Shown here piece after piece: positions 1,604 to 24,784 of a stretch of 64,000 nucleotides of DNA. A program made the translations under genes and the position numbers. Every line of letters starts with the position of its first letter. Positions within the stretch are counted from its first letter, which is position 1. The notes beneath the pieces are model-generated. The model was given only the letters and a program-made list of their open reading frames with translations, searched no databases and was not told where the DNA came from. The stretch is from Agreia sp. Leaf283 (GTDB lineage Bacteria > Actinomycetota > Actinomycetes > Actinomycetales > Microbacteriaceae), in assembly GCF_001422485.1 (NCBI RefSeq), contig NZ_LMNF01000004.1:1-64000 (forward strand), read 5' to 3'.

Positions 1604-3216
1604 CGCTCGGGGCGGTCGGGGCGCCCGGCACGCTCGGCGCGCTCGTGAGGCGGCGCATCGAGATTCCGATCCTGGCGGTCGTCGGCGCCCTGATCGTGCT
1701 CATCGGCATCGACACCCCCTCGATCTGGTATGACGAGGCGGCCACGATCGTGTCGGCCACGCGCACCTGGCCCGAGCTCTGGGCGATGCTGCACACCGTC
1801 GACGCCGTGCACGGGGTCTACTACGCGTTCATGCACGTGTGGTTCGACATCGTGGGCTATTCGCCGTTCACCCTGCGGCTGCCGAGCGCGATCATCTCGG
1901 GCGGCACGGTGGCGCTCACGATGCTGCTGGCCTCGCGGTTCGGAACCCGCGGGTTCGCCCTGCTCGCGGGCGTCGTGCTGATCACGATCCCGCGGTTCAC
2001 CTGGGCCGGCATCGAGGGCCGCTCGTATGCGCTGACCGCGCTGCTCGCCGCGGCCCTGACCCTGCTGCTGATGCGCGCGCTGCGCTCGCCTGTACGAGAC
2101 TCGCGCTGGTCGGCCGTCTGGCCGTGGCTCGCCTACGCAGGCGTAGCGCTCGTCTCGGTGGGCGTCTTCGTGTACCTGTCGCTCGTGGTCGTGGCCCACG
2201 CGGTGACCGTGCTCGTGCTCACGAGCTCGGGCACGCTGAGCCGGCGCCAGCTGTTCGCCTTCGGCCGCACGGTGGTGCCGCTCGGCGTCGTCTGCATTCC
2301 CTTCGTGCTCATCGTGGCATCGCAGTCGGGTCAGGTGGCGTGGATCGATCCCATCAGCCAGCGCACCCTCACCGGAATCCTGATCACCCAGTTCGCGCCG
2401 ATGAACCCGCCGTTCGCCATCTTCACCTGGCTCGTGGTGCTCATCGGAATCGCCACCTTCATCGTCGCCCGCCGCGCCGCGACGACCAGGGCCAGGGCCG
2501 CGCGCGATCTCATGGCGTGGGTGCTGCCGTGGCTCGTCGTTCCGACCGTGGTGCTGGTGCTCACATCGGTGCTGGTCACTCCGCTGTACTCGCCGCGCTA
2601 CCTCACCTTCCTCGTGCCCGCGCTGGCAATCGCGATCGCCGGCGGAATCGTGGGCCTTGGGCGCCTCACCCGCCGCGCCACGCGACTGCCGGGCGCCGCC
2701 CGGTGGCCCCGGATGCGATCGGTTCCGTGGACCGCGTTGGCCGCGATCTCGGGGGTGCTGGTTCTCGCACTGCTGACGCAGCCCTCGTATGTCGCACAGC
2801 GCGGAGCGGAGGCGAAGCAGGACGCCTCGTGGTCGAAGGCGGCGTGGCGCGTGTCGGAGGTAGCGGCGTCGTTGCCGGCCGACGCCTCGCCAGCGGTCGT
2901 GTTCGGAAGCATCGCGTACCACCCGGCAGCCACGGCACGGGTGGTCGAGTACGCGTATCCGTGGGCCTTCACGTCGCTCGACGACGTGGCTCTCGTCGAG
3001 CCGATCGGCGTCACGGATCGGCTGTGGGAGACGGCCGAGCCCGTCGATACCGCGATGCTCGAGGGCGACGACACGGTGATCCTCGTGTCGAGCGGCCGCG
3101 ACCGCGAGGTGAACGAGGCAGCGATCGAGGGAGCGGGCTTCACCGAGGTCGACCGCTGGCACTACACGAACCTCTGGGTGAAGGTCTACGACCGAACTCC
3201 TGTGCCGCTCAAGTAG
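1600..3216 (+). CDS. Polytopic glycosyltransferase, GT39/ArnT-like
   Basis: A 538-residue membrane protein starting at the GTG that overlaps the upstream stop. The first hydrophobic segment is followed by IWYDEAATI, the Asp-Glu loop used as the catalytic base in GT-C enzymes of the ArnT/PMT type. About ten further membrane segments and a C-terminal extracytoplasmic domain of roughly 130 residues follow. By family it would transfer a sugar from a lipid-linked donor on the outer face of the membrane. The partner at 227-1603 is probably in the same pathway. The substrate is unknown. The stop codon TAG lies inside a 39-bp dispersed repeat (3213-3251). Confidence 0.75.
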   Translation: MTLGAVGAPGTLGALVRRRIEIPILAVVGALIVLIGIDTPSIWYDEAATIVSATRTWPELWAMLHTVDAVHGVYYAFMHVWFDIVGYSPFTLRLPSAIISGGTVALTMLLASRFGTRGFALLAGVVLITIPRFTWAGIEGRSYALTALLAAALTLLLMRALRSPVRDSRWSAVWPWLAYAGVALVSVGVFVYLSLVVVAHAVTVLVLTSSGTLSRRQLFAFGRTVVPLGVVCIPFVLIVASQSGQVAWIDPISQRTLTGILITQFAPMNPPFAIFTWLVVLIGIATFIVARRAATTRARAARDLMAWVLPWLVVPTVVLVLTSVLVTPLYSPRYLTFLVPALAIAIAGGIVGLGRLTRRATRLPGAARWPRMRSVPWTALAAISGVLVLALLTQPSYVAQRGAEAKQDASWSKAAWRVSEVAASLPADASPAVVFGSIAYHPAATARVVEYAYPWAFTSLDDVALVEPIGVTDRLWETAEPVDTAMLEGDDTVILVSSGRDREVNEAAIEGAGFTEVDRWHYTNLWVKVYDRTPVPLK

Positions 3217-3251
3217 CCGCACGATGCTGGAGCCGGCGTATCGAGATCACC
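3213..3251 (+). repeat. 39-bp dispersed repeat (GTAGCCGC...GTATCGAGA)
   Basis: 35 of 39 positions match 24746-24784. Related pieces (GTCGAGTAG, GTATCGAG, CGATACGCCGG) occur at 54780-54925. It begins at the stop codon of the glycosyltransferase gene, so it is a 3'-flank element. Confidence 0.7.
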
Positions 3252-3260
3252 GATCCGGTA

Positions 3261-3341
3261 TCACAGGACGAACCGAGGGATTGTCGGTGTGTCGTCCCTC
3301 CTCCGACGGAGTGTCGTCGATTCATCCTGTTGAACGATTCC
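3261..3341 (-). repeat. 81-bp structured direct repeat, copy 1 (3' side of DUF559 gene)
   Basis: It aligns without gaps to 4431-4511, exactly 1,170 bp away. ACAGGACGAAC and TTCATCCTGTTGAACGA are identical in both. Read on the minus strand, ACAGGATGAA pairs with TTCGTCCTGT (one T.G pair) to form a 10-bp outer stem around conserved CGACGACAC and ACGACACACCGAC blocks and a small inner hairpin. This copy contains the last six codons and the stop of the DUF559 gene. Its function is unknown. Confidence 0.8.
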
Positions 3342-4305
3342 GGTTCATCCGTCGGAGTCGGTGAAGGTCCTCCATGTCCGAGACAGCCCGACTGATCGCG
3401 GCCAGAGTCGACGGCCACATGTCGAAGATGTGATGGGGAAGAATGCGAAGAGTCGGCCGGCCGAACGCGAACGACTGGAGAGTCTTTCCGTAGTCCCAGC
3501 TGATCTGCTCCTCTCCGGTGTGCCAGGCCCGGCTGTCGATATCGAGGCCGACCACGCCATTGATCAGCAGATCCAGATCGCTCGAGCCCGGAATGCCGAC
3601 CTGCGGCTCGACCACGAAGCCGGCCCGTCGCATCCGCACCCGAACGATCGACTCGGGACCGGAATCGGCCGCGGGATCGAGCTCGACTCTCAGCCTCTGC
3701 AATCGACGCGGGAGCGATCTGAAGAGAGATTCGAGATTGTGAGCGTGCACGACCTCCTTCCGCAGTGCGGAGTCGATGGCTGCGATCGCATGTTCGTCGT
3801 CGAGGCAGAGCACCGCCTGACGGAGCGCGCTCATCGGATCGGCCAGCCAGTCGTCCGCCCACGACCGCGCCGTTCGAGTGCTCGCGGCGTTCGCGCGCTG
3901 CCAGTGCACACGTGGTGGGCCCGGCTCCGCCCAGAAGGTCTTGTCGGTCCGACGGGTCTCGGGACTCCGGCCGAGCGCGGCGATCTCGTCGAGGTGGAGA
4001 CGAGATGCCGATGGGGGAACGTGGATATGAATCGCCGTGTCGAGCCCGCCCCATACGCCGACACGGCGAAGGGCACTCACACAGCCGACGCGTCCCCCGG
4101 CCATCACGGCCCGACGCTGGTCGATGTCGGCTTCCGGGAGCGCGTACATTCCTCGGCGGAGCCTCTCGAGAGCCCCCGAGCGGCATGCCGCATCGATGCT
4201 GGCCGGGTCTATGCGTGCCTCGAGGAGTGTTCGTCTCGACGCGACGTTGCCGTTGCGACGGACACAATGCTGGATGAGCCGGAGATCTCTCGAGGAAGCA
4301 GTCAT
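3322..4305 (-). CDS. AbiEi-like/DUF559 (Vsr-fold) protein of unknown function
   Basis: A 327-residue protein. The first ~70 residues resemble the winged-helix N-terminus of AbiEi-type antitoxins (LRRGMYALPE, then SALRRVGVWGG). The last ~110 residues carry the DUF559 pattern (ESIVRVRMRRAGF, then GSSDLDLLINGVVGLDIDSRAWH), related to the Vsr/PD-(D/E)XK nuclease fold. Such proteins are common and often multi-copy in Microbacteriaceae, and none is known to me to have an assigned role. No AbiEii toxin neighbour is present, so a toxin-antitoxin role is not supported. The gene stands alone between two 81-bp repeats, one overlapping its 3' end and one about 125 bp upstream of its ATG. It could be part of a small mobile or self-maintaining unit; that is inference. 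Confidence 0.75.
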   Translation of the reverse strand: MTASSRDLRLIQHCVRRNGNVASRRTLLEARIDPASIDAACRSGALERLRRGMYALPEADIDQRRAVMAGGRVGCVSALRRVGVWGGLDTAIHIHVPPSASRLHLDEIAALGRSPETRRTDKTFWAEPGPPRVHWQRANAASTRTARSWADDWLADPMSALRQAVLCLDDEHAIAAIDSALRKEVVHAHNLESLFRSLPRRLQRLRVELDPAADSGPESIVRVRMRRAGFVVEPQVGIPGSSDLDLLINGVVGLDIDSRAWHTGEEQISWDYGKTLQSFAFGRPTLRILPHHIFDMWPSTLAAISRAVSDMEDLHRLRRMNRNRSTG

Positions 4306-4430
4306 TCGAGGATCGTCGTCTCGGTCGACTGGTGGGTGGACCAGAGATCGTCGTCGCGGGGGAGAATCCGCCGAGTTCGAGGATTCGGGAGGAGAAGTCG
4401 GGGTCGGATGGTTCCGGACGTTTCTCGTAT

Positions 4431-4511
4431 TACAGGACGAACGGAGGAGTCGTCGGTGTGTCGTCGGTAGAACGACCGAGTGTCGTCAGTTCATCCTGTT
4501 GAACGAATCCC
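4431..4511 (-). repeat. 81-bp structured direct repeat, copy 2 (5' side of DUF559 gene)
   Basis: Partner of 3261-3341 in the same orientation. The outer stem is kept. In the inner hairpin one base pair is changed on both sides (C-G in copy 1, G-C in copy 2) and another is lost. The copy lies between the 3' end of the lacI-type gene and the promoter region of the DUF559 gene. Confidence 0.8.
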
Positions 4512-4548
4512 GGCCCGGACTCGGGAGTCACTCGATGGAACCCAGGAC

Positions 4549-24690: not shown

Positions 24691-24784
24691 CGTTCCCTGA
24701 GCCTGTCGAAGGGCGGTCTGCGTTTCGCGGAGCTGCGCCGGTCGAGTAGCCGCGCGATGAAGGAGCCGGCGTATCGAGACCACC
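24691..24784. repeat. Composite dispersed repeat between EamA and MocR genes
   Basis: Contains one GTTCCCTGAGCCTGTCGAAGGG copy (24691-24713) and the 39-bp GTAGCCGC..GTATCGAGA repeat (24746-24784) also seen at 3213-3251. If translated on the minus strand it would extend the EamA protein, which argues against that longer start. Confidence 0.7.

Follow-up and report, generated by a model that had tools for sequence, protein, structure and literature searches.

Palindromic repeats of bacteria are a long-standing puzzle. The enzymes tied to them are the RAYTs, which are Y1 transposases, and in REPtrons a RAYT gene is flanked by REPs, with family-specific repeats dispersed mostly between convergent or unidirectional genes (PMC3733652, accessible part of the text). 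The same part describes the CGTC-tagged REPs, a large class of dispersed extragenic palindromes, and reports them without a dedicated transposase (PMC3733652). AbiE is a type IV toxin-antitoxin system (excerpts of PMC3985639 and PMC7319586), and AbiEi antitoxins autoregulate via inverted repeats (excerpt of PMC7319586).

We analysed a window, that is, the whole stretch of 64,000 nucleotides from Agreia sp. Leaf283 (Microbacteriaceae; contig NZ_LMNF01000004.1, positions 1 to 64,000). It contains a nuclease-like gene bracketed by two copies of a repeat:

3258..3341, plus strand: 84-nt imperfect palindromic repeat, copy 1, on the 3' side of the gene; holds the gene's last codons and stop

3322..4305, minus strand: gene for a protein of 327 aa with an AbiEi-type winged helix and a Vsr/homing-endonuclease-like nuclease (Pfam, alignment and predicted model)

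4427..4510, plus strand: 84-nt imperfect palindromic repeat, copy 2, on the 5' side of the gene, in the same orientation as copy 1

We read this locus, with a probability of about 60%, as a REPtron-like unit, in which a nuclease gene lies between two copies of a palindromic repeat specific to it, further copies are scattered extragenically and the nuclease would nick and spread them. We call the anatomy REPtron-like because bracketing, gene specificity, dispersal and extragenic placement all recur; the enzyme differs.

The two copies are in direct orientation and align without gaps over 84 nt with 82% identity. A whole-genome search with copy 1 returned copy 2 at E 8.1e-18, and the pair is far above chance level. 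A sequence-only reading of the window had already described two direct, ungapped copies, which is correct, although the spacing of 1,170 bp it gave was one base off and the start-to-start distance is 1,169 bp. It had also placed the last codons and the stop of the gene within one copy, and the TGA stop and last codons of the minus-strand gene 3322-4305 are indeed inside copy 1. Its claim that both copies fold in the same way on the minus strand holds for the outer ACAGGATGAA/TTCGTCCTGT stem, which forms in both, and fails for the inner part, where the folds differ.

The window's genome has six copies of this repeat: the bracketing pair, two on the same contig and two on another. The sequence-only reading had held that repeats found mostly away from DUF559 genes would speak against a link with the gene. 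Taken literally this is the case, with four of the six copies elsewhere in the window's genome, but we do not count it against the link because a REP-type family predicts exactly such scatter.

The window-type repeat is present in seven of eight Agreia genomes, the window's included. Twenty Agreia copies, namely those passing a regular expression on the ends with cores of 54 to 74 nt (L061, for example, falls outside it), align gap-free over 84 columns, with the ends ACAGG...CCTGT and two CGGNGTGTC blocks in direct orientation at a distance of 22 nt. Several Agreia copies are at orthologous positions and are therefore old. The orthologous gene likewise lies between two copies in four other Agreia. 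In G006 both copies are 99% identical to each other, whereas their identity to the copies around the orthologous gene of four other Agreia is only 52-63%; therefore, the pair turns over together.

The sequence-only reading had suggested that the repeats may be the ends of a small mobile unit and had proposed a comparison of empty sites. Each repeat is by itself an imperfect palindrome, and strong pairs, described below, are found in direct as well as inverted orientation. In two Agreia genomes (G001 and G002) the gene and both repeats are absent at the window's site, and the joints are too diverged for a clean junction or a target duplication to be read. The genome of G005 matches the window site on one side only. 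None of the loci compared showed a transposition event, a duplicated target site or a cleanly empty site. At the window site G002 has a palindrome which resembles, by eye, the distinct repeat family of L036.

Several further observations concern repeats in Agreia. At G004:C106:33468-33881 two near-alike window-type repeats (L025 and L023) enclose a short stretch that may be a small ORF. In two other species a single repeat is present at this site and the stretch is missing, and in the window's genome the stretch is accompanied by one repeat. Synteny between two Agreia genomes breaks at the repeat copy L009 (G000:C4:254312), with the G004 flanks (L104/L098) on different contigs, and a partial repeat is found at one synteny break in G004 (L104/L098). 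About 50 bases of positions 3200-3262 of the window match 24 other Agreia places among the matches listed, at 80-90% identity, and one match is near 24733 in the window. This stretch looks like a further extragenic repeat family.

The repeats had also been proposed to be a non-coding RNA. This reading found no support in the window family, where Rfam, RNAalifold and covariation on the 20 copies were used. No Rfam family was found at the window repeats at the cut-off, and RNAalifold retained 9 pairs over the 20 copies. Covariation in the 20 copies was not above that of shuffled alignments, 93 of 500 of which reached its score, and the real count of pairs changed on both sides was matched in 288 of 500 shuffles. 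Since the covariation is within the range of the shuffles, the compensated pair pointed out in the sequence-only reading is no evidence for a conserved RNA. On the lack of an Rfam match together with the lack of covariation beyond shuffles, a conserved structured non-coding RNA was rejected for the window family as not supported.

Residues 10-57 of the window protein match Pfam AbiEi_4 above the cut-off (E 2.7e-7), and the match to the Pfam MTES_1575 nuclease is weak (E 0.015, below the cut-off). AbiEi_4 was below the cut-off or absent among the matches listed in five other relatives. Among six proteins scanned with Pfam only L034 exceeded the DUF559 cut-off, and none exceeded that of MTES_1575. 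NCBIfam gave no match for four of these proteins. In PADLOC the winged helix matched AbiEi (best E 1.2e-6), and L034 alone gave a weak match to a homing endonuclease (E 0.0039); phage records gave a single weak relative (E 2e-5).

The predicted model of the window protein has a mean pLDDT of 69, which is moderate confidence. Its residues 6-59 align with the AbiEi antitoxin 6y8q at Z 7.8, a value equalled by several unrelated winged helices, and Foldseek matched 6y8q at E 3.4e-4 over a larger part of the chain. Residues 212-313 align at Z 10.3 both with NGO0050 (3hrl, endonuclease-like) and with the catalytic domain of the homing endonuclease I-Bth0305I (3r3p). In 13 aligned sequences, the window protein included, S215, G216, E218, Q235, D245, H262 and D271 are invariant, so that a nuclease fold (Z 10.3) goes together with conserved catalytic-type residues (E, D, H and D). 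Based on the AbiEi_4 match, the invariant residues and the model alignments, the protein therefore reads as a predicted DNA-binding winged helix followed by a predicted Vsr/homing-type nuclease. No AbiEii toxin gene was found beside the window gene, whose neighbours are a LacI regulator and a stretch without a Pfam match. With no partner toxin gene adjoining it, a toxin-antitoxin system was rejected for the window locus.

The protein is present in 48 of the 70 Microbacteriaceae genomes searched. Relatives down to about 30% identity, as well as paralogues, can have other, gene-specific repeats on both sides, mostly palindromic. Our first sample was the best 80 of about 150 places listed in Microbacteriaceae, with the window's own genome left out, and a flank-to-flank match of at least 35 bits was found at 44 of these 80 loci, whereas 3 of the 351 control ORFs that they contain had one. 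Since these loci had been viewed before the 35-bit cut was set, the cut was then fixed and tested afresh on 40 further loci, where a pair was found at 29 versus 2 of 167 control ORFs (Fisher p 4.5e-24). The further loci from Microbacteriaceae, which were 20 of the 21 new places from a second search, had the pair in 18 of 20 cases (control 1/78). Those from other families of the class had it in 11 of 20 (control 1/89) and were hand-picked among the better-scoring places, a stop-codon locus, second pieces and a few partial hits being skipped. Below the cut were 36 of the first 80 loci and 11 of the further 40. After removal of eight of the further 40 loci as partial hits or at contig edges, 70 of the remaining 112 had a pair versus none of the 90 genes with a gap of at least 80 nt on both sides, and versus 9 of 554 GC3-called genes; gene calls behind the control and mapping counts are heuristic. 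The counts of 44/80, 18/20 and 11/20, against 3/351, 1/78 and 1/89, support both the link between the gene family and its flanking repeats and the RAYT/REP-like logic which the sequence-only reading had suggested.

On named plasmids, AbiEi-type relatives had the pair in three of four cases (Tsukamurella 2/3, Actinomyces 1/1). Alphaproteobacterial plasmid genes of the DUF559 type, which were matched via the nuclease part only, had it in none of four, and one alphaproteobacterial DUF559-type gene with guessed bounds reached 33.1 bits. As none of the four plasmid loci had a flanking pair, we rejected a connection with alphaproteobacterial DUF559 genes and with CGTC REPs.

Eight loci each contributed one flanking repeat for a comparison with all eight genomes, and every match listed was in the genome from which the repeat came. 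In seven of the eight genomes we found dispersed copies at a distance from the gene, at at least 24, 17, 12, 12, 6, 4, 1 and 0 places, which makes at least 76 in total. Places are merged match rows, and the numbers are lower bounds, as five genomes yielded 42-78 candidates each, 40 of which were scored. Short or partial rows occur in G080, G075 and G027. G013 has a bracketing pair and no dispersed copy among the matches listed, and G101 has one weak copy only. We mapped 40 of the 76 places (20/24 in G023, 17/17 in G000 and 3/6 in G035). None was inside a called ORF, and a few overlapped a gene end by at most 13 nt; 20 copies were between convergent genes, 8 between unidirectional and 8 between divergent ones, and 4 had no assigned context. 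Identity between the dispersed copies and the query is about 70-94%, and recent spread is therefore not evident.

Two side observations concern single families. All 19 members among the matches listed of the AATTCAGGAGGAG repeat family (L324-L340 and L036; best 40 of 54 candidates) are in one 0.75-Mb stretch of the 3.98-Mb genome (G000:C1:582384-1332494), around a nuclease gene at C1:1.21 Mb. This clustering hints at local spread. In one genome (L208 and G023:C2:827313) a second nuclease paralogue has, about 0.4 kb downstream of its match, a repeat copy that belongs to the family of another nuclease gene.

The elements have sharp ends in the alignments of two families (21 and 18 rows), and in the G023 family we recognised by eye four GTGTAGGT modules, two per orientation. 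Palindromic copies with sharp ends could also be MITE-like elements moved by another transposase or recombinase, with the nuclease gene carried along by chance or selection. The second short stretch found between two window-type repeats in G004 and the one synteny break at a repeat would fit such passengers. However, in many genomes members of this one protein family lie between repeats that are unrelated to each other from genome to genome, and control genes are not bracketed in this way. Moreover, Y1_Tnp (PF01797, the RAYT family) was found in none of the eight genomes, while the same search was positive in 5 of 14 named control genomes; this covers the Y1 family only and is a weak test of the passenger explanation. 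We consider it improbable that the nuclease is a mere passenger, and the REPtron-like reading, in which gene and repeat belong together, is preferred.

The 45 strong pairs, drawn from the first 80 and 19 further loci over 45 bits with the partial locus L269 left out, comprise 25 direct and 20 inverted ones, with a median match of 89 nt. The median distance from the stop to the downstream copy is 9 nt, and in 15 pairs this copy abuts the stop or overlaps with it. For upstream copies the median distance to the beginning of the profile match is 144 nt, and the upstream copy is palindromic at z > 3 in 35 of the 45. This upstream position would suit a regulatory role, in which the AbiEi-type winged helix binds the palindromes as operators or as RNA hairpins and nothing is mobile. 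The upstream copy would then autoregulate the gene, as AbiEi antitoxins do through inverted repeats (excerpt of PMC7319586), and the dispersed copies, 20 of the 40 mapped ones between convergent genes, would be a regulon or protein-dependent terminators. Nevertheless, an operator needs no copy immediately downstream of the stop, and neither the wholesale change of the repeat between orthologues (52-63% identity) nor the retained nuclease residues are expected of it. RNA hairpins, for their part, are at odds with the absence of RNA covariation in the Agreia family. A purely regulatory role is thus unlikely, though it is the alternative we take most seriously.

A hairpin score of at least 16 was reached upstream at 35 of 80 loci versus 21 of 359 controls, and downstream at 28 of 80 versus 28 of 359. 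Plain transcription terminators, duplicated around an accessory gene, would also place hairpins near stop codons and between convergent genes. We find this explanation very improbable: terminators have no need to be alike on two sides and no gapped control gene (0/90) had such a likeness, one copy precedes the gene, and the window family is conserved in sequence without compensatory change.

Returning to the REPtron-like unit, we infer that the protein binds, cuts and spreads its repeats. The winged helix would bind the repeat, and the Vsr/homing-fold domain would nick or cut it, probably as an extruded imperfect hairpin. Repair might then copy the hairpin to new extragenic places or homogenise existing copies. 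The outline would be that of RAYT/REP, with a different chemistry.

These results suggest that many actinobacteria of soil and plants carry a kind of gene, not described before, which is associated with a small repeat of its own and perhaps spreads it. There is a real chance that the system, a REP-type repeat with a dedicated enzyme, is a class of its own. In the open-access literature outside bioRxiv, judged by titles and the beginnings of abstracts, we found no paper tying DUF559/AbiEi genes to palindromic repeats. Tentatively, with somewhat less than even odds, we propose a second, RAYT-independent class of REP systems that would be widespread in Actinomycetes, in which winged-helix and Vsr/homing nucleases each spread or homogenise their own hairpin. 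Gene and repeat would diverge together, as a selfish or domesticated pair that shapes the genome. If true, a distinct nuclease family with cognate hairpins would mean that the repeat/enzyme arrangement arose more than once. It would also account for many "AbiEi antitoxin domain" genes that stand alone in the genomes of actinobacteria, and provide defined enzyme-hairpin pairs open to bench testing.

Compared with known systems, the window protein shares with AbiE an N-terminal AbiEi-type winged helix, whereas no AbiEii nucleotidyltransferase toxin was found beside the gene and a nuclease domain follows the winged helix. With the Vsr-like nucleases (I-Bth0305I 3r3p, NGO0050 3hrl, DUF559 and MTES_1575) it shares the fold of residues 212-313 and the conserved acidic and His residues, but here the nuclease comes together with an AbiEi-type domain in one protein, and its gene lies between copies of a dispersed palindrome specific to it. 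Repeat ends of the form GTTCAAC...GTTGAAC presumably resemble integron attC boxes; an attC reading was considered for that reason and set aside. The CGTC REPs are likewise dispersed extragenic palindromes, although the species named in the accessible text are from other phyla (PMC3733652).

The closest likeness is to REP/RAYT, as far as the accessible part of PMC3733652 describes it. In both, an enzyme gene is flanked by copies of a palindromic repeat, the repeat families are gene-specific with several families possible per genome, and dispersed copies are extragenic and often between convergent genes, here in seven of eight genomes. They differ in size, the elements here being about 65-110 nt in the aligned families, with flank matches up to 162 nt, and REPs 20-40 nt. 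They also differ in the enzyme, which here is a winged helix with a Vsr/homing-fold nuclease and not an HUH/Y1 (IS200/IS605-type) transposase. As Y1_Tnp was found in none of the eight genomes, the arrangement is built like a RAYT system without being one.
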